This document shows positions 29,365 to 38,472 of a DNA stretch of 64,000 nucleotides, piece after piece (position 1 is the stretch's first letter; every line of letters begins with the position of its first letter). The notes under the pieces are model-generated. The model did not search any database. It was not told the DNA's origin and saw only the letters and a program-made list of their open reading frames with translations. The DNA is from Anthracocystis setariae (taxonomy: Eukaryota > Basidiomycota > Ustilaginomycetes > Ustilaginales > Ustilaginaceae), in contig CAKMXJ010000002.1 in the NCBI GenBank assembly GCA_928724745.1, positions 1 to 64,000 of the forward strand. The letters run 5' to 3'. The translations under genes were made by a program, and so were the position numbers.

Positions 29365-30920
29365 TGCTGAGGGCGATCGTGACCATGGCAGAGGTCACGC
29401 CGGATTCCGAACTCGATCTCACAAGTTTTGAGATCGGGTCTCATTTAATCACGATCGGTTTAGGTCCATCTTGGATCCGTCCCGAGAAAGAGGTTTGTGC
29501 ATTCGGCAGAGCCTTGTTGAAGCGTCACAATTTAGCTGTGATGACAGCTGACAGAAATTGCATGTGCTGTATGAGTCTCGATGCTTGTGAACTGCAATGA
29601 GCTGCTGCGTTGCATCATGTTGTACGCGCCAAAGCAACAGAAATGCTGCACCTGAAAGGGCTGGCTGGGCAAAGCAGACGCAGAGCAGCACAGGGGAGGG
29701 GGCGAGAGGAAGAGAGAGGAATCCCTTTTTCGAATCTGAGGATCTTCTCGGCGATCAAGAATTTGAGGTCTGGTGATTCTTACCGAACCGCGGGCACAGC
29801 CTCAAAAATTCGAATCAAATTTTGTTTTTTTTTTGGAAATCAACACGCCGTGTGGTTGGAGCAGCGTAGGACTGTGAGTCCGTCGAAGTTGCACAGATCG
29901 AGCCTTACCTTTGTCGATGAGCACGAAAAGAAAGTGGATTTGGAATGCACATTCGATTCCTGTGCAAGTCAATTGCACCAAGATGAATAATTGCAAGCGC
30001 TGACAAGGGATGCTTGTGGACAGCATCAAGCCCAACACCGAGTGAATGGCTATACTGTATTTGAGGCTCTGAACGATTGCTGGCAGCAGGGTCGTGTGAA
30101 TCATGAATGCAACAACAGGAGGCGGTCTTGCGCGCGTTTCAAGATGAAAAATTTACAGAGAGAGAGAGAAATGAAAAGCAAAAAGGAATGAACGATTTCA
30201 AAATGTCGATTCTGCCAGGAGTACACTCAGGGCACTGTATCCCAGCTCTGTCCCATGCAGCTTGAATTGCAAGCCAAGCCATGCGCGCTCAGCCAGGCAC
30301 TTATACAATACACACACACACACACACAGGCGATTCCGCTGCGCCCTGTAATCCCTATCGTTTGGATGGGAGGAATGCTTAACCTCGTGCTCGCGACCTT
30401 CAAGTTTCATACAGCTAAGCATCCACCACAACACTCTTACCCTGTAGATCCTCCAATTTCAGCGGTTCGAATTCCGCTCCCTCTCTGTGTCGCGTTGATC
30501 GAAACCCATCTCATCGCTCGTTGCATAGATACCTACCTCCCTGCCTGCCTGCCTGTCTGTCTGCCAGGTTGCGCCCTGTACCCCCTTTTCCTGAATGCCT
30601 TGTCCTTCTGAGCCGCCTCCTTCCTCATTTCTAGCCCCGTCTCAACTCGGAACTCACCCTTCTTGCTCCCAACCGGGTATCCCCCCTCCCCGGATATCCC
30701 CCCGTCTCTGACTGTTTCTTTGGTGTCGTCTGTGTCTTGTGCCTCAACGGGCATCGGGCTGGAACCAGTGTCTCTTCTTGACATCTGCGGACCAACTTGA
30801 ATGCCTCTTCCTTCCCAACCATTCCACGTCCCTCTATCTTTTCCGGATCCTTTGCTTTCATTCTATATCGACCTCCCTGTGTCCCAACTACGCTCAAGAT
30901 TAGAGACGACTCGGTACAAC
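29365..30920. other. Intergenic region; no gene recognised
   Basis: Holds an AG-rich patch near 30160, (CA)9 at 30311-30328 and CCTG/GTCT repeats at 30539-30566. The last ~150 bp, rich in C and T, are the probable leader of the chitin deacetylase gene. Confidence 0.5.
30311..30328. repeat. (CA)9 microsatellite
   Basis: 18 bp of uninterrupted CA in the intergenic region upstream of the chitin deacetylase gene. Confidence 0.9.
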
Positions 30921-32306
30921 ATGGTCAAGCTCACCTTTGCTGCTGTGCCTATGGCACTTGCCGCCTTGGCCGCGGCCAAGCCTGACTTTGAGAAGCGTCA
31001 GGTCTCCGCTTCGTCTGCTGCCGCAGCTGCTCCTACTTCCACCTTTACCGGTACTCTGCCTGCCTCGGTCTCCTCGCTTCTCGCAGGCATTTCGTCTGGT
31101 ATGGGCGTGACTACTTCCACCACATCGCTTTTCACCACATACCCTGCCGGAGCTCAGAATCCTCAGGTCACGGGCGCTCCTGGTCTGCCGGACCTCAACA
31201 GCATCCTGCCCACCAACTTCCCTACTCTCGATGTTGTGCCTCCCACCAACTCATCGCTCGTGCAGAAATGGATCTCGCAAATCGACTGGTCCAAGGTGCC
31301 TAACGTGACCACCACAGTTGACGATGCTTCGTGCAGCGGCAACCCTACCAACCTCGCACAGGCTGGTGCCGACGGCAACTGCTGGTGGACCTGTGGCCAT
31401 TGCACTCGTTCCACCGATATCACCACCTGCCCTGACACCAACACCTGGGGTCTCTCTTACGATGACGGCCCCTCGCCTTACACTCCCACCCTGCTTGAGT
31501 ACCTCAACCAGAACAACCTCAAGTCCACCTTCTTCGTCGTAGGCTCGCGTGTCATCTCGCGTCCGCAAATGCTTCAGACCGAATTCGAGCAGGGTCACCA
31601 GATCTCGGTGCACACGTGGTCGCACCCACCGCTCACCACGCTCACCAACGAACAAATCGTTGCCGAACTCGGTTGGAGCAAGGAAGTCATCCGCACTGTC
31701 ATTGGCGTCACGCCCAACACCATGCGTCCTCCTTACGGTGACATTGACGATCGAGTGCGTTCCATCGCACTGCAGATGGGTCTCACTCCCATTATCTGGA
31801 CCACCCCCTCTGGAGGCCTTCCTTACGATACCAATGACTGGAAGATCGCTGCCGGTGTTGTTTCGCCCGCCCAGGTGGTATACAACTTTGAGCAGATCAT
31901 CCAGAACGCTTCTTCGCTTTCTACCGGCTATATTGTGCTCGAGCACGACTTGTACCAGCAGGCCGTCGACATTGCCGTCAACATTGTGCTTCCCGCCGCT
32001 CAGCAGATGAGCCCGAAGCAGAATTTGATGCCCATCGTTCAGTGCCTCAAGAAGCCCGCTTCGGATGCCTACATCGAGACCTATGCCAACAACTCTGGCT
32101 CGCTCCCTAACGAGACTGGTGCGTCTGGCACGCACTCTCTCACCGGCACCGGCGCCGCTTTTGGCTCGCTTGCTACCGCTACGGGCTCATCGAGCTCGTC
32201 AGGCTCCGGTACCAAGTCAGCTGCCACAACGGTGTTTATCCCATCTGCCGTGCTCTACACTGGAATCCTCGGCGTGGTTGTGGCTTGCTTTGCTCTGCTT
32301 GTTTAA
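30921..32306 (+). CDS. Chitin deacetylase, secreted and GPI-anchored
   Basis: Single exon, 461 residues; ATG chosen at 30921 because it begins the signal peptide (MVKLTFAAVPMALAALAAA), followed by a KR dibasic site. A Cys-rich stretch (CSGNP...CWWTCGHC...TTC) precedes the NodB polysaccharide deacetylase domain. Its motifs are SYDDGPSP near residue 180, HTWSHPPLTTL and RPPYGDIDDRVRSIA, with metal-binding Asp and His residues and catalytic Asp in place. A Ser/Gly/Thr-rich tail and a C-terminal hydrophobic segment (VLYTGILGVVVACFALLV) mark a GPI anchor. The enzyme converts cell-wall chitin to chitosan at the plasma membrane or wall. In plant-pathogenic fungi this helps wall integrity and hides chitin from host receptors. 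Confidence 0.94.
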   Translation: MVKLTFAAVPMALAALAAAKPDFEKRQVSASSAAAAAPTSTFTGTLPASVSSLLAGISSGMGVTTSTTSLFTTYPAGAQNPQVTGAPGLPDLNSILPTNFPTLDVVPPTNSSLVQKWISQIDWSKVPNVTTTVDDASCSGNPTNLAQAGADGNCWWTCGHCTRSTDITTCPDTNTWGLSYDDGPSPYTPTLLEYLNQNNLKSTFFVVGSRVISRPQMLQTEFEQGHQISVHTWSHPPLTTLTNEQIVAELGWSKEVIRTVIGVTPNTMRPPYGDIDDRVRSIALQMGLTPIIWTTPSGGLPYDTNDWKIAAGVVSPAQVVYNFEQIIQNASSLSTGYIVLEHDLYQQAVDIAVNIVLPAAQQMSPKQNLMPIVQCLKKPASDAYIETYANNSGSLPNETGASGTHSLTGTGAAFGSLATATGSSSSSGSGTKSAATTVFIPSAVLYTGILGVVVACFALLV

Positions 32307-33014: not shown

Positions 33015-35465
33015 ATGTTCAGAGCCATCTTCTCATCATCTAGTAGCTCCAAGGAGCAAAAGCCAAACAAGGCCAACGCTGCGTCCTCGTCGTCTCCCAG
33101 TGGAAGCGCAACCACCTCCCCGTCATCTTCACCAATCATGTCGTCCGTACCGCTCGTACCATCGCGCAGCTCCAGCACTGCTACAGCAGCTTGGTCAGTA
33201 CCTCCTTTCCCGCATCCGCTGCCAGAGCGCCAGATCGGCATCCTGCCAACCGAGCACGGTCTTCTAGTATACCCCCGCAGCTCTGCACATGTCAACTATC
33301 ATCACCATCATCATCCACCGCACAAGCCCCACCATGCCAAGTCAAGCACAACAGCAACTGCCACTGGCTTTCGCCCCTTCGGCTCAGGAGACGGCTTCAA
33401 GGTCGCTACCGTCGGATCCTCCAATGCTGCTTCTCTTGCCGCCGTCAACGCTCCTCTAAGTGCCACAGGTGCAGTGCCCACTGTCACTTCACTCGACGTT
33501 GGGTTTTTCATAGAGTGGGGCAAACAAGCAACCATCATCCCTCTATCCCCTTCTGACTGGAAGCCCATCTTGGAACAAGCAACCCAAGACGAGCCAACCA
33601 TGGAATGCTCTGGTCTTATCGGACTGTCGCGCTTCTTCAACAGCAGCTATCTCTTTGTCATCATCAGCTCCAAGCTTGTAGGTCACTACTTCCACGACAC
33701 TAGACCCATCTACTGTTGCACCGGAGTGCTTGCCATCCCGCTGCTTCGAGAAGAAGCCACTCAGGCCATCCGCGCACATGTAGCCAAGAACGGTTCTGCC
33801 TCTACACAGTCTACCTCCAATGCAGATCAAGCCGATACCAGCACAGGCGACGTGACTACGCAAGAAAGCAGCTCTGCAAGTGAAAGTGACGCTTCCGAAT
33901 CCGACGACGACGATGTTCAGACACCGGCGGTCATCCCGAAGGAGTCTTTCTTTTCGGCATCCTCCATGTCAAATCGAGCTGATATTCTCCGTCTGCCGAA
34001 ATCGAGACCTTGGCTCACTCGCGCCGCCCGACCCGTCTCGGACAGCCGTATCGAGGCCATCTCGGAAGACCCGGTGGCGCAGTCTCAGATCGCAGATGCC
34101 ACGCCGCCCACTGGCGACGAGGTAGTTCAGGCAGACATTGCTTCGCAATCGTCCGAGGTGGTTGAGACGATCGTTCCTTCCAATGCACCCGCTACCGTCG
34201 ACGAGCTCTGGCATGCGGCCAAACAAGCCGAGCTCGAGGATAAGGCTGTTCGCGAGACAGCAAAGTACTGGGCACGCGGAGAATTTTGGTTCAGTTATGA
34301 TTTCGATCTTACTACATCTCTGCAGAATAAGAGGAAAGCTCTGGAGAGCCAATACAAGACTGACACTGCCAGCAGCCCCCGCTCAGCGTCCGTGGCAACC
34401 TTCAACTCGGGTCAAACGGGTAAGAATCAAAACGCGTCGACAGATCCTGAACAGCCTGGCGCATTCCCGTTGCTTGCCGAGCCGTATCCAAACCTTCCAC
34501 TTTGGAGAAGAGCAGACCGCAGGTTCTGGCATAACGAACACATGTCGAAGGATCTGATCCATGCGGGCTTGCACGCCTATATTCTGCCGGTCATGCAAGG
34601 ATACCTTCAGACCGTAGAGCTGCCGATCCAGTCTGCCGATCGAAACGCTGACAACAGCGACGCTTCAAGTTCCCAGGCTGATGATGCCGATGCGGTACTA
34701 CGCTGCCAGATGATGGTCATCTCTCGCCGCTCCAAGGAACGAGCTGGGCTACGCTATCAGCGCCGTGGCATCAATGAGTCTGGCCAAGTCGCCAACTTTG
34801 TCGAGACCGAGCAGATCCTCTACGTGCTTCGTTCCCGGTCTTGGTCCAAGCTCTCTGGAGACGTGCTTTCGTTCGTCCAGATTCGTGGGTCCATCCCTCT
34901 TTACTGGTCGCAGAGCCCCTTTTCTCTCAAGCCTCCACCTGTACTGGAACGTACCGAGGCCGAAAACACGGAAGCTTGCCGCAAACACTTTTCAGTCCAA
35001 GTGGATCGGTACGGCTGCATCACATGCGTCAACCTCGCCGAACAAGGCGGCAAGGAGGGCTGCATTTCGAGGGCATACCGCAGCGCTGTGGAGAATCTTT
35101 GCGCCGAAGATGCAGCCAGCGATGCGGGTGGAAAGGTGTGGGACCGAGACAAGCTGCACTATGTCGACTTTGACTTTCACAAAGAGTGTTCAGGGATGAG
35201 GTTTGAGAATGTTGCCAAACTCATCGCGCAGATGGAGCCGACTCTGGCAGAGATGAAGTATTACCACCATACGACGGAGGGGGAGGGGAAGGGAGTCAAA
35301 GTGGTGAATCGACAGACCGGCGTTTTCAGGGTGTCGTGCCTAGATTGTCTGGACAGGACCAATGTGGTGCAGTCTGCGTTTGCTAGACATGTTCTCACTG
35401 GTCAGCTGGCCCAGCTGGGAATCAGCGTTGCAAGCGCTGAGCCTGTTCACGCTACCGCCGCTTGA
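33015..35465 (+). CDS. SAC-domain phosphoinositide phosphatase, N-terminal half (INPP5F/Sac2-like), ending after the catalytic motif
   Basis: 816 residues, single exon. A Ser-rich start is followed by SAC-domain features: IGILPTEHGLLVYP, CSGLIGLSRFFNSSYLFVIISSKLVGHYFHDTRPIY, AKYWARGEFWFSYDFDLT, WRRADRRFWHNEHM, LRYQRRGINESGQVANFVETEQIL, FVQIRGSIPLYWSQSP, LHYVDFDFHKECSGMRFENV. The catalytic motif is SCLDCLDRTNVVQ (Cys775-x5-Arg781). The family dephosphorylates phosphoinositides on membranes. The protein stops only 35 residues after the catalytic motif, whereas family members carry on with a conserved WANN...DFTRTGKR block and a Sac2 homology region. Exactly that missing part is encoded on the opposite strand at 37054-35729. 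Acidic Ser/Asp-rich inserts (about residues 260-390) look disordered. Confidence 0.88.
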   Translation: MFRAIFSSSSSSKEQKPNKANAASSSSPSGSATTSPSSSPIMSSVPLVPSRSSSTATAAWSVPPFPHPLPERQIGILPTEHGLLVYPRSSAHVNYHHHHHPPHKPHHAKSSTTATATGFRPFGSGDGFKVATVGSSNAASLAAVNAPLSATGAVPTVTSLDVGFFIEWGKQATIIPLSPSDWKPILEQATQDEPTMECSGLIGLSRFFNSSYLFVIISSKLVGHYFHDTRPIYCCTGVLAIPLLREEATQAIRAHVAKNGSASTQSTSNADQADTSTGDVTTQESSSASESDASESDDDDVQTPAVIPKESFFSASSMSNRADILRLPKSRPWLTRAARPVSDSRIEAISEDPVAQSQIADATPPTGDEVVQADIASQSSEVVETIVPSNAPATVDELWHAAKQAELEDKAVRETAKYWARGEFWFSYDFDLTTSLQNKRKALESQYKTDTASSPRSASVATFNSGQTGKNQNASTDPEQPGAFPLLAEPYPNLPLWRRADRRFWHNEHMSKDLIHAGLHAYILPVMQGYLQTVELPIQSADRNADNSDASSSQADDADAVLRCQMMVISRRSKERAGLRYQRRGINESGQVANFVETEQILYVLRSRSWSKLSGDVLSFVQIRGSIPLYWSQSPFSLKPPPVLERTEAENTEACRKHFSVQVDRYGCITCVNLAEQGGKEGCISRAYRSAVENLCAEDAASDAGGKVWDRDKLHYVDFDFHKECSGMRFENVAKLIAQMEPTLAEMKYYHHTTEGEGKGVKVVNRQTGVFRVSCLDCLDRTNVVQSAFARHVLTGQLAQLGISVASAEPVHATAA

Positions 35466-35728
35466 TGGTCATGTTTGGTATTCTTTCGTCTTCTTCTCGA
35501 TCCGTCGTCATGTCCTTCTTCTCAGTCTCAGTTAGGTAGATTTCGTTGAAAAGTTGATATGACAGATATCCTTCGGAATCTTTTCGTGCGTCTGTGTGGC
35601 ATTTTTGCTCGAGATAGCTGTGTCAATTGCAATCCGAGTAGAAGACTGGACCAGGATTAGGGATTGCCGCAAGTGACAGGATTGGGGTATAAAATCGAGC
35701 AGTACCATAGCTGGGGAAAGATCAAAGG

Positions 35729-37054
35729 TTAGAGCCAAAGTCGACGCTTCAAGCCCTCGATGAGAGGACCGAAGAGAGGCATCAATGCTTTGGCCTCATC
35801 GAGACTCTGGATGGTCTTGTATGTGACGAATGCCTCCTCTCCCTCTGCCGACTGCGCCTCGGGATCAAAGGCACCTGCATCGGCACAACATTCCATCAGA
35901 AGCTCCACGATCATGGCCACCTTCTGCCTTGATGATGCAAAGGACTCCTCCCCGTCATCGTTGTCGTCTACAGCGCCGACCTCTTGCTTGGTGCCATCGG
36001 AGGCGTTGTTGGCACGCTGAGAAGAAGCCTTGACGGTATGGTGCAGGTAGCGCGATCGAAGGGTGGCATTACGCGTGGAGGAAGTGATGGAGTCATCGAC
36101 CTCGTCCGAAATGGCACGGAAGGCAAAGATGCGTTTGGCTGCTTCGGCTTCGTGGAGGGAAGACGCTACGGAAGCGGCCGCTTTTGTGGTGGTGAGATTG
36201 TTGATGGTGGCGGTGGTGTTGCTGCGAGAGATGGAGTTGAGATAGGTGATGACAAAGCCCCAGTTGTCTTCTGGATGGGAGGACTCGTGTGGAGAGGTGA
36301 CGTAGAGACCTATGGGACGCCATGTCGCAAAACCAAAAGATTAGGTGTCAGCGTTGGACGTTAAGCGCAAATAGTGCCTGGTTTGATTAGACTTACCTTG
36401 CTGTATCCCAACAATGTCGCCAACGAGCACCTTGGTAAACTCGTTGAGCTTTTCGCTTCCAAAGTCATAGCTACAGACATACAGCGCCTTGGCGGTCAAC
36501 AATACCACTTTTTCCTCGAGCTTCAAGGCTTGCACGGTGTTGGCTTGCAGCGGCGAGCATAACGTCCAACCTCGGAGCATGAGCTCGCTCTCCGGAACGG
36601 CTTGCCTGCGACAGCTCTCGATTGCACTGGCACGAACCCTAGCCAATCGGATCGACTCGGAAGGGTCACGGCTATTGAGATCGTCGTAGTATTTTTCCAA
36701 TCCTTGCAAACCGATGGACCCGTAGGTAAAGTCGAGTACAGTCTGACGGAAGAAATCGGTGACGGCACCTTGGACCATCCTATAGACCGAGTTGGTTGCA
36801 TCGTTGATCATGCCGAGGAAGCTCCTCTTGCCAGTCCTTGTGAAGTCGACTTTGAGCGCATCAGTGTTGGAATAACAGTGAGAGATGGCGTTTGCATTGT
36901 TTGCCCAGATATCGTTGAAAGCTTGATCGAGTGCCTTTTCGGTCAGAACAAACTTTGCTCGAGGGAGGACGACATTTGCGGTGGTGGGTGGGGCGACGGC
37001 GGTAGCGACTTTTTCGGTTGTCGAGAGAGGTGGTGGTGCGGGTGGGGCTGACAT
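35729..37054 (-). CDS. C-terminal half of a SAC phosphatase (post-catalytic SAC segment plus hSac2-like domain), as a separate gene
   Basis: Two exons, 37054-36397 and 36309-35729, with a GTAAGT...TAG intron (87 bp) that keeps frame; 412 residues. After a Pro/Ala/Thr-rich start of ~35 residues the protein reads ALDQAFNDIWANNANAISHC, LKVDFTRTGKRSFLGMINDATNSV, then DFFRQTVLDF. This is the segment that in INPP5F/Sac2-type phosphatases directly follows the CX5R motif. The remainder (RGWTLCSPL, VVLLTAKALYVCSYDFGSEKLNEF, GDIVGIQQG) matches the hSac2 homology domain. It has its own ATG, intron and stop, so it looks like a working gene, not debris. It is convergent with the N-terminal half, with 263 bp between stop codons. 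The two products probably assemble to make one enzyme; that is inference. Confidence 0.82.
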
Positions 37055-37766
37055 TTTTGCGTGTCAGGCCTGCGACTGGGTAACGAGATAAGCTTAAAGA
37101 TGATGGGTTGACAGCAAACTGTCGCGGTGGACAAGGAGAAGGAGGATGGTTTTTAGCCGAGCTAAGGCTGACGTGCATAAAGCGCCCCTGAGCCAATTCG
37201 ACTGAGCCAACTCCACAATATTTTCTACATAACAACAACACCGCCAATCAACTCGAACATCACATATCAGAGTTCCTTGCCTCTGCCTTGGCCTTTGCAG
37301 CAACAACAGAGAAGAGCTTTCAGAAAGTGTATGATGAAGCGCTTGATCCTGTCTAAAGATTGCCTTCAAAAATTCATTTCGACAAGATGGTGATCAGAAA
37401 GATCTCTACAGCACTATCCCCTTCTGAGCCGCATGTCGACGTAGAGGAAAACAGGCTCAGCGCCTCTAGCTGGACTATGTCGCCGAAATGGGAGCTAGCT
37501 AGATGCCTGGCTAGAAAGTGGTACGAATGATGAGGAACGAGGAGAGAGACAGAGAGAGAGCGCACTTGCAAGCTACGGTAGCTGGTGGTCTAAGCGCGGA
37601 ATTCGCGGCGTGGGAACCGAGTGGAGGTCGTGTGCTCGCGAAGAAAGCGATTTCAAAGGAGCAGAAAAAAGCGCATCTCATATGTCGTTCTCTCCAACCA
37701 CCCACCGTCATCACTCCGCACAAACCTCTCTTGGTCTCCAAGCCTTGCTGCAAGCTTCGCTTCACC
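37055..37766. other. Divergent promoter region between the SAC C-half gene and the Dap1-like gene
   Basis: No gene recognised. A short AG-rich patch (about 37546-37560) lies about 210 bp before the Dap1-like ATG. Confidence 0.5.
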
Positions 37767-38472
37767 ATGGAGCAGCTTAAAGACACACTGTTTGCAAACG
37801 AAACGCCGTCGTCCTACCTCACCGCGGTGCACCAATTTGCAGAATCTATTTACACCAATCCGCTCAACATTCTCCTACTCCTCGCGCTCCTCTACATTCT
37901 CGTCCCAGTCATTCTTCCGTCCTCCCCCAACTCATCAAAATGGACTCCTTCCGTCGCTCAAGCACGATCGCATACCTCGGCGCCTTCCGACCGCTATTCC
38001 TACCTCCCTCCATCCCATCCTGACACCGTCGAATGGACCAAATACACGCCTCGCACCCTCGCTGTATTCGATGGCACTGCCACCGACGGTGGTGGTCGCA
38101 TCCTCCTATCCATCAATCGCAAAGTGTTTGACGTCACAAAGGGCAAAAACTTCTACGGTCCCGGCGGTCCTTACGGTAACTTTGCCGGCAGAGACGCCAG
38201 CAGAGGAATGGCGAAACAGAGCTTTGATCTCGAAATGTTGACCCCACTAGATCAGCCCATCGACACACTCGACGATTTGACCGCAAGCGAAATGTAAGTC
38301 ACCTCAAACAGCCGCACAGACCCTCACCTCGATCCGCCCATCACTGAAACCCAATCTGATCCCATCTCACCTCTCCTGGCCACTTTGCAGAAAAAATATG
38401 AAGGAATGGGAGGCCCATTTCACAGGCAAGTACGGCATCGTCGGCGAGCTCGTCAACGAGGACCAAGCTTGA
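37767..38472 (+). CDS. Dap1/PGRMC-type membrane-associated haem-binding protein (cytochrome b5-like)
   Basis: Exons 37767-38293 and 38391-38472 (GTAAGT...CAG) give 202 residues in frame. An N-terminal membrane anchor (NPLNILLLLALLYILVPVIL, about residues 32-51) is followed by the cytochrome b5-like MAPR domain: YTPRTLAVFDGT, ILLSINRKVFDVTKGKNFYGPGGPYGNFAGRDASRGMA, and the last helix WEAHFTGKYGIVGEL. The Tyr-rich FYGPGGPY loop carries the haem ligand in Dap1/PGRMC1. Yeast and mammalian members bind haem and support sterol-synthesis P450s (Erg11, Erg5) at the ER, giving azole and DNA-damage resistance phenotypes. The ATG used is the first that gives the membrane anchor; the open frame upstream is probably leader. 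Confidence 0.92.

Follow-up and report, generated by a model that had tools for sequence, protein, structure and literature searches.

A SAC phosphoinositide phosphatase encoded as two proteins on opposite strands in Anthracocystis setariae

In Anthracocystis setariae a phosphoinositide phosphatase is encoded as two proteins on opposite strands. Both genes lie within the first 64,000 nucleotides of contig CAKMXJ010000002.1 (assembly GCA_928724745.1), a stretch that we call the window. The first gene (N-half) runs on the plus strand from an ATG at 33015 to a TGA at 35465. Its 816 codons contain a Syja_N domain (PF02383, 3e-79) and the catalytic CX5R motif of the SAC family, and the stop falls 35 residues downstream of the CX5R arginine. 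The second gene (C-half) is read from the minus strand (37054-36397 joined to 36309-35729). It encodes 412 amino acids in the order head, end of the SAC domain with FNDIWANN and DFTRTGKR, and hSac2 domain (PF12456, 7.3e-29). The open reading frames (ORFs), the intron and the Pfam matches bear out an earlier note, which had described a SAC-hSac2 protein split into two open genes here. The best protein match of the C-half has an E value of 3.7e-188, far above chance; the NCBIfam profiles, a prokaryotic library, gave no match. We consider it likely (a probability of roughly 75%) that the two proteins make up a two-chain enzyme completed in trans, which arose by one gene fission, plausibly through a local inversion.

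The locus was compared with P0023, a natural single-chain orthologue of 717 amino acids from Violaceomyces palustris, which was searched against the entire 21.47-Mb genome. Three of its nine matches are at the split locus, and six weaker ones are in three other SAC genes. Residues 2-501 of P0023 match the plus strand at 33909-35429, residues 511-689 match the minus strand at 36395-36928, and residues 684-714 match the minus strand at 36233-36325, so that each C-half exon accounts for one piece. Nine linker residues are unmatched between the two genes and nothing overlaps. The non-overlapping coverage of the whole family protein that the note had described (2-501 on plus, 511-714 on minus) is thus recovered with a natural query. 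The note had also raised a complete copy elsewhere as a finding that would speak against it; this search found no full-length SAC-hSac2 copy in the 21.47-Mb genome. PF12456 was found at one place in the genome and PF02383 at four. The other three SAC genes, which we take from their motifs to be Sac1 (C28), Fig4 (C4) and synaptojanin (C34), run on beyond CX5R in a single frame. SAC and hSac2 are not joined on one polypeptide at this locus but lie on opposite strands, each with its own ATG and stop. Because they are on separate chains, the locus is filed as a split derivative and not as an ordinary INPP5F/Sac2 member. The features are as follows.

33015..35465, plus strand: N-half gene, an 816-residue SAC protein (Syja_N) including CX5R; supported by ORF, Pfam, the P0023 genome match and the ends of orthologues
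35337..35363, plus strand: catalytic P-loop CLDCLDRTN (CX5RT), a motif also seen in the 22 N-halves measured
35364..35465, plus strand: helix after the P-loop and Ala/Ser-rich N-half tail of linker size, from alignment and distance measurements
35466..35728, no strand: convergent intergenic stretch, 263 nucleotides from stop to stop
35729..36309, minus strand: C-half exon 2, the remaining hSac2 and a conserved C-terminus (IEGLKRRLWL)
36310..36396, minus strand: C-half intron of 87 nucleotides, GT-AG
36397..37054, minus strand: C-half exon 1, with the Pro/Ala-rich head, the end of the SAC domain (FNDIWANN...DFTRTGKR) and the start of hSac2
36920..37054, minus strand: C-half head, 45 residues ahead of FNDIWANN
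37767..38472, plus strand: flanking DAP1/MAPR-type cytochrome b5-like gene, outside the enzyme; two exons, intron 38294-38390

Split and unsplit forms among relatives

The N-half protein search scored the 7992 candidates that share most words with the query and gave 2004 matches. Among the best 120 of these, 88 proteins carry both PF02383 and PF12456 and 32 carry PF02383 alone. The top 20 (P0002-P0021) all have PF02383 alone, and their named sources are Ustilaginaceae, except for P0021, which is filed under Cichorium endivia. Testicularia cyperi (P0022) and Thecaphora frezii (P0032) also have PF02383 alone in this set, and both domains are found on one chain in Violaceomyces, Tilletiaria, Ceraceosorus, Sympodiomycopsis, Parajaminaea, Microstroma and Tilletia. 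The C-half search mirrors this: PF12456 stands alone in 30 of the 50 matches listed. Such proteins of 387-420 amino acids come from U. tritici, U. loliicola, Ustilago sp. UG-2017a, S. reilianum, Kalmanozyma and Melanopsichium, and further from Testicularia, P. flocculosa and T. frezii. Among the matches listed, P. flocculosa is without an N-half, and U. trichophora, M. antarcticus, M. aphidis, P. hubeiensis and S. graminicola are without a named C-half. The class Ustilaginomycetes takes in Violaceomycetales, Urocystidales and Ustilaginales, and Tilletiaria belongs to Exobasidiomycetes. The unsplit gene that the note had proposed to look for in relatives is therefore present in outgroups (e.g., Violaceomyces), and the pattern is that of a gene fission, with one gene in the outgroups and two in one clade. 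On this evidence the case derives from a known enzyme family by a split and is found across a clade.

Several proteins that resemble single halves were set aside. The other ten proteins with PF02383 alone (P0024, P0026-P0029, P0034, P0042, P0062, P0071 and P0086) lie outside the clade, and none was counted as split. They are regarded as partial models because P0071 stops short of the P-loop and the other nine extend beyond the cut into FNDxWANN. Six out-of-clade proteins with PF12456 alone were likewise taken as fragments: in P0146, P0153 and P0154 SAC-side sequence precedes FNDxWANN on the same chain, and P0149, P0150 and P0158 begin within or after FNDxWANN. P0020 was left out of the N-half counts since its model stops before CX5R. 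At the place of the C-half intron the gene models P0139, P0134 and P0148 read from GIQQG or GIQEG into unrelated letters. Two records, P0021 and P0145 (L1887_56518/56517), are filed under the plant Cichorium endivia. P0021 is near-identical to the Moesziomyces aphidis N-half outside one gap (661 of 760 positions identical to P0013 by BLASTP, with 70 gap columns), and for this reason the Cichorium records look like smut-yeast contamination of a plant assembly.

Phylogenetic trees were made for both halves, with 23 rows (11 split) for the N-half and 22 rows (10 split) for the C-half. A branch at 95/93 in the N tree and at 80/72 in the C tree separates the split rows from the unsplit ones. The C tree joins Violaceomyces to the split rows at 100/98 and pairs P. 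flocculosa with Thecaphora; in the N tree the placement of Violaceomyces is open. A single fission is the simplest reading.

The two halves are also neighbours in relatives. Consecutive locus tags for N- and C-half are found in U. tritici (NDA13_002529/002528), U. loliicola (NDA16_001531/001532), T. frezii (ACQY0O_008290/008291) and the pair filed under Cichorium endivia (L1887_56518/56517). In addition, N- and C-half are on contigs of the same size, taken as shared, of 8738, 23766, 6633 and 678276 bases; equal size is good evidence of a shared contig for the three short ones and weak evidence for the long one (Testicularia). Besides the window, this makes eight pairs in total. The opposite-strand arrangement is known from the window alone; what the relatives show is the adjacency of the two halves.

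Place of the cut and constraint on the two halves

In unsplit proteins the linker was measured by pattern, from the P-loop cysteine to FNxxWANN, and was found in 78 of 90 rows tried. Read by eye, ten of the 12 misses do have both CX5R and a WANN-like motif in a single chain, and the other two (P0071 and P0091) are without a CX5R match. The distance is 40-46 residues in 72 proteins and 84-119 residues in six, namely P0059, P0063, P0066 and P0078 of Tilletia together with P0043 and P0053. In the four Tilletia proteins the linker is about 50-75 residues longer at the place where the smut gene splits. From the P-loop cysteine to the C-terminus, the 22 split N-halves measured have 33-47 residues, and CX5R is present in all of them. 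Because the tail length matches that of the linker and Tilletia carries insertions there, the cut is placed in an insertion-tolerant linker, with the N-half retaining a helix and a linker-sized tail. The tails are variable, unalignable and mostly Ala/Ser-rich, so that the cut is placed approximately. The C-half heads ahead of FNDxWANN are 43-63 residues long in 12 relatives and 45 in the window. They vary, with an EKxATAVAPP-like stretch near the start in common, and Ala21 and Pro22 (window numbering) are invariant in 13 of 13 C-halves. The same holds for Glu39, Lys40, Leu42 and Asp43 of LTEKALD, directly ahead of FND, and EKALDxAFND resembles the DEAFDFAFND of unsplit proteins. The LTEKALD stretch may be the end of the old linker, and the AVAPP part, for which unsplit proteins have no counterpart, is probably new.

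Structural comparisons place the cut inside a catalytic fold. The N-half aligns to residues 149-417 of the crystallised 505-residue chain of yeast Sac1 (3lwt), and residues 44-112 of the C-half match yeast Sac1 435-503 (436-503 in the 3lwt chain). The small phosphatases KAP, PRL, TpbA and Siw14, which have the protein tyrosine phosphatase (PTP) fold, align to the P0023 model up to residues 544-547. The cut corresponds to about residues 502-514 of this model, and since the alignments extend past it, the cut lies within the PTP-like fold. AlphaFold2 models the WANN helix with a confidence of 85/82 in the unsplit protein and of 64/56 in a C-half alone, and hSac2 shows no such drop. For a relative's C-half, the predicted model has a match in 4xuu (E 1.3e-5).

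Constraint on the halves was assessed in the columns where 13 unsplit proteins do not vary (67 columns in the N block, 45 in the C block). All 21 aligned N-half rows were used, with P0021 joined solely for the linker measurement (22 rows), and 14 of 16 C-half rows were used after P0145, which is without the DFTRTGKR segment, and P0139, which reads into the intron, had been dropped. The invariant residue is retained in 1366 of 1407 cells in the N-halves and in 629 of 630 cells in the C-halves. Identity to Violaceomyces in eight split pairs, which include the window and six named taxa (the S. reilianum pair combines two strains), is 58-64% for the N-half and 75-81% for the C-half. Seven nearby unsplit rows give 59-64% and 55-67%, Tilletia 52% and 63%, and two mushrooms 50-51% and 44-46%. 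Neither half is decaying, because the invariant residues are retained and the identities are comparable to those of unsplit rows. No claim is made that one half evolved faster after the split, as the identities are within or near the unsplit range. Few parts of the C-half are conserved as well as the stretch that begins at FND and ends with the SAC remnant, and residues of about 47-105 are almost invariant in 13 C-halves.

Two local sequence differences were also considered. C-half residues 53-77 (36824-36898) read NANAISHCYSNTDALKVDFTRTGKR, a form common to unsplit Violaceomyces, and the other aligned single-chain relatives have NGD.IS..YAG(T/S).ALKGDFTRTG(K/R)R or a near version. Because unsplit Violaceomyces has them, these changes in the catalytic domain predate the split. 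A change of W to H before the P-loop, seen in at least ten N rows (30 of the 41 deviations listed), was rejected as split-specific, since yeast Sac1 has H there.

Origin, rival explanations and known systems

In the proposed history, an ancestral INPP5F/Sac2-like gene (SAC plus hSac2) would have suffered a single break, no later than the last ancestor shared by the sampled Ustilaginales and Urocystidales. This break would have parted the P-loop helix from the FNDxWANN helix, within the short, variable linker that joins them. Since the 3' half lies inverted in this genome, the simplest cause would be a local inversion that carried this half along with its own 3' end, and the layout fits it. The inverted half must have acquired a promoter and a start codon, and its head of 43-63 residues would be at least partly new. 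The 5' half has retained the active-site CX5R, and the 3' half encodes the final helices of the PTP-like fold and the PH-like hSac2 domain. Non-covalent assembly of the two chains would restore the fold, and the 816-residue chain by itself would be inactive or unstable. That the chains work together is suggested by the presence of separate halves in related fungi, by their conservation and by the position of the cut in the fold. Human Sac2 has 4-phosphatase activity on phosphatidylinositol 4-phosphate (PI4P) (PMC6829663), and its hSac2 domain serves dimerisation and localisation (PMC6829663; PMC6856015). By analogy, the substrate here is presumably PI4P, and the 412-residue chain might both complete and place the enzyme, as a fold-completing, membrane-targeting and possibly dimerising subunit. 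It is fairly probable that this is a eukaryotic lipid phosphatase of the PTP fold, encoded in the nucleus, in which the minimal catalytic fold is completed in trans, and that the two proteins have persisted as an obligate heterodimer from the ancestor of the sampled Ustilaginales and Urocystidales onward, so that the supply of a chain or the assembly of the two could act as an on-switch of PI4P turnover. The 3' untranslated regions of the convergent pair may overlap, given stops that are 263 nucleotides apart.

An exact 14-nucleotide inverted repeat (35434-35447 in the last N-half codons; 37450-37463 upstream of the C-half) flanks the entire C-half gene. It is the longest exact inverted match of the two break regions, and none of 100 shuffles reaches 14. 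It was rejected as an inversion scar because Thecaphora is split as well, and an event of that age should no longer show such a trace; the repeat is unexplained.

The layout could also have come about by another route, such as an inverted tandem duplication with complementary loss. This would end in an identical arrangement and concerns the origin only, being compatible with a two-chain enzyme. There is no leftover duplicated segment, and the P0023 matches do not overlap. This is a weak argument, as time erases such traces, and we regard this route as possible, if doubtful. A functional divergence of the two products is unlikely. Here the N-half would be a lone phosphatase or a dead binding protein and the C-half a free lipid-binding or adaptor protein. 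Free hSac2 proteins do exist, e.g., Mover/TPRGL (PMC6856015), and hSac2 is well modelled in a C-half alone (ten-residue blocks across 151-260 at 84-96, with one at 77). However, the SAC-derived segment of the C-half is near-invariant and a free hSac2 protein would have no need of it, CX5R is retained in 22 of 22 N-halves, and the cut takes away the end of the PTP-like fold.

Two further explanations would remove the split at the level of the gene or of the product. Inversions do arise in assemblies, and the ten out-of-clade proteins show that a protein can appear N-only merely through a partial model. The earlier note had accordingly named an assembly inversion as its main alternative. This alternative is very unlikely because the halves are separate in independent assemblies of Ustilago, Sporisorium, Kalmanozyma, Testicularia and Thecaphora; in addition, N-halves end in the linker and C-halves have heads with their own Met. 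The inverted match at the breaks is just 14 nucleotides, and the repeat search found no long inverted repeat in 35300-37900. We see almost no chance that an assembly or annotation artefact hides one collinear gene. Hardly more probable is a rejoining of the halves by trans-splicing or intein-like ligation, in support of which nothing was found. The aligned N-halves end in tails that vary and are mostly Ala/Ser-rich, the C-halves bear their own heads, and no shared intein- or splice-like block was seen by eye, although no search aimed at inteins or splicing was made.

A two-chain enzyme completed in trans can be compared with several known systems. INPP5F/Sac2-type proteins, both human Sac2 and the single-chain basidiomycete P0023, share Syja_N, CX5R, FNDxWANN, DFTRTGKR and hSac2 in the same motif order; they differ in that here there are two opposite-strand genes, a stop in the linker and a second chain with its own head. 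Both halves align to the crystallised catalytic chain of yeast Sac1 (3lwt, 4tu3, 8c81), which is a single chain without hSac2. Yeast Sac1 has C-terminal membrane anchors. A separate Sac1-like gene is present in this genome in a single frame (L001). The split Doa10 of Kluyveromyces is likewise a nuclear fission in a fungal lineage with clade-wide retention (PMC3464245). Its fragments assemble into an active enzyme, and the promoter of its second half, shown there, is one that we infer here (PMC3464245). Split Doa10 consists of two ORFs around a 508-bp intervening sequence, cut between two transmembrane helices (PMC3464245), whereas the present genes are on opposite strands and are cut within the catalytic domain, and the assembly of their products is a prediction. 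The split mitochondrial cox2 of Campsomeris, green algae and alveolates has complementary chains that are thought to be heterodimeric (PMC5374615). In-frame insertions occur at the cut site in unsplit ciliates, as in Tilletia here, and some lineages have extensions beside the cut that recall the C-half heads (PMC5374615). It differs in being an organelle gene and in having insertion as its proposed cause (PMC5374615). Inversion is among the recombination events able to split genes (PMC2557144). In the literature searched by titles and abstract openings, with most subscription journals outside coverage, no prior report of the present split was found.

Three features set the case apart, namely the position of the cut within the catalytic fold, the placement of the halves on opposite strands and the persistence of the split. 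If true, this would be a natural split enzyme, cut in its catalytic fold and retained across two fungal orders. It opens tests of how a rearrangement-broken gene survives, of fold completion in trans and of hSac2 as an activating or targeting partner of SAC phosphatases. Engineered split reporters can make use of natural split sites, and the split may be a rare genomic character of Ustilaginales and Urocystidales, the latter being represented by one species.

Neighbouring genes

The DAP1/MAPR-type gene (37767-38472) is divergent from the C-half. In ten cases a DAP1-like gene is on a contig of the same size as that of at least one half (8738, 23766, 6633, 678276, 23881, 4471, 431385, 1427303, 1528023 and 1737574 bases). 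DAP1 and SAC genes are on different contigs in Thecaphora and Violaceomyces, and also in P. flocculosa, as far as the longest contigs tell. Co-location on long contigs proves little, because Sympodiomycopsis has DAP1 and the SAC gene on one 4.5-Mb contig. Several DAP1-like orthologues bear the name dihydrodipicolinate synthase, though PF00173 alone is listed for them. Upstream of the N-half, at 30801-32306, lies an ORF of 501 amino acids that resembles, by eye only, a secreted glycosylphosphatidylinositol-anchored polysaccharide (chitin) deacetylase.

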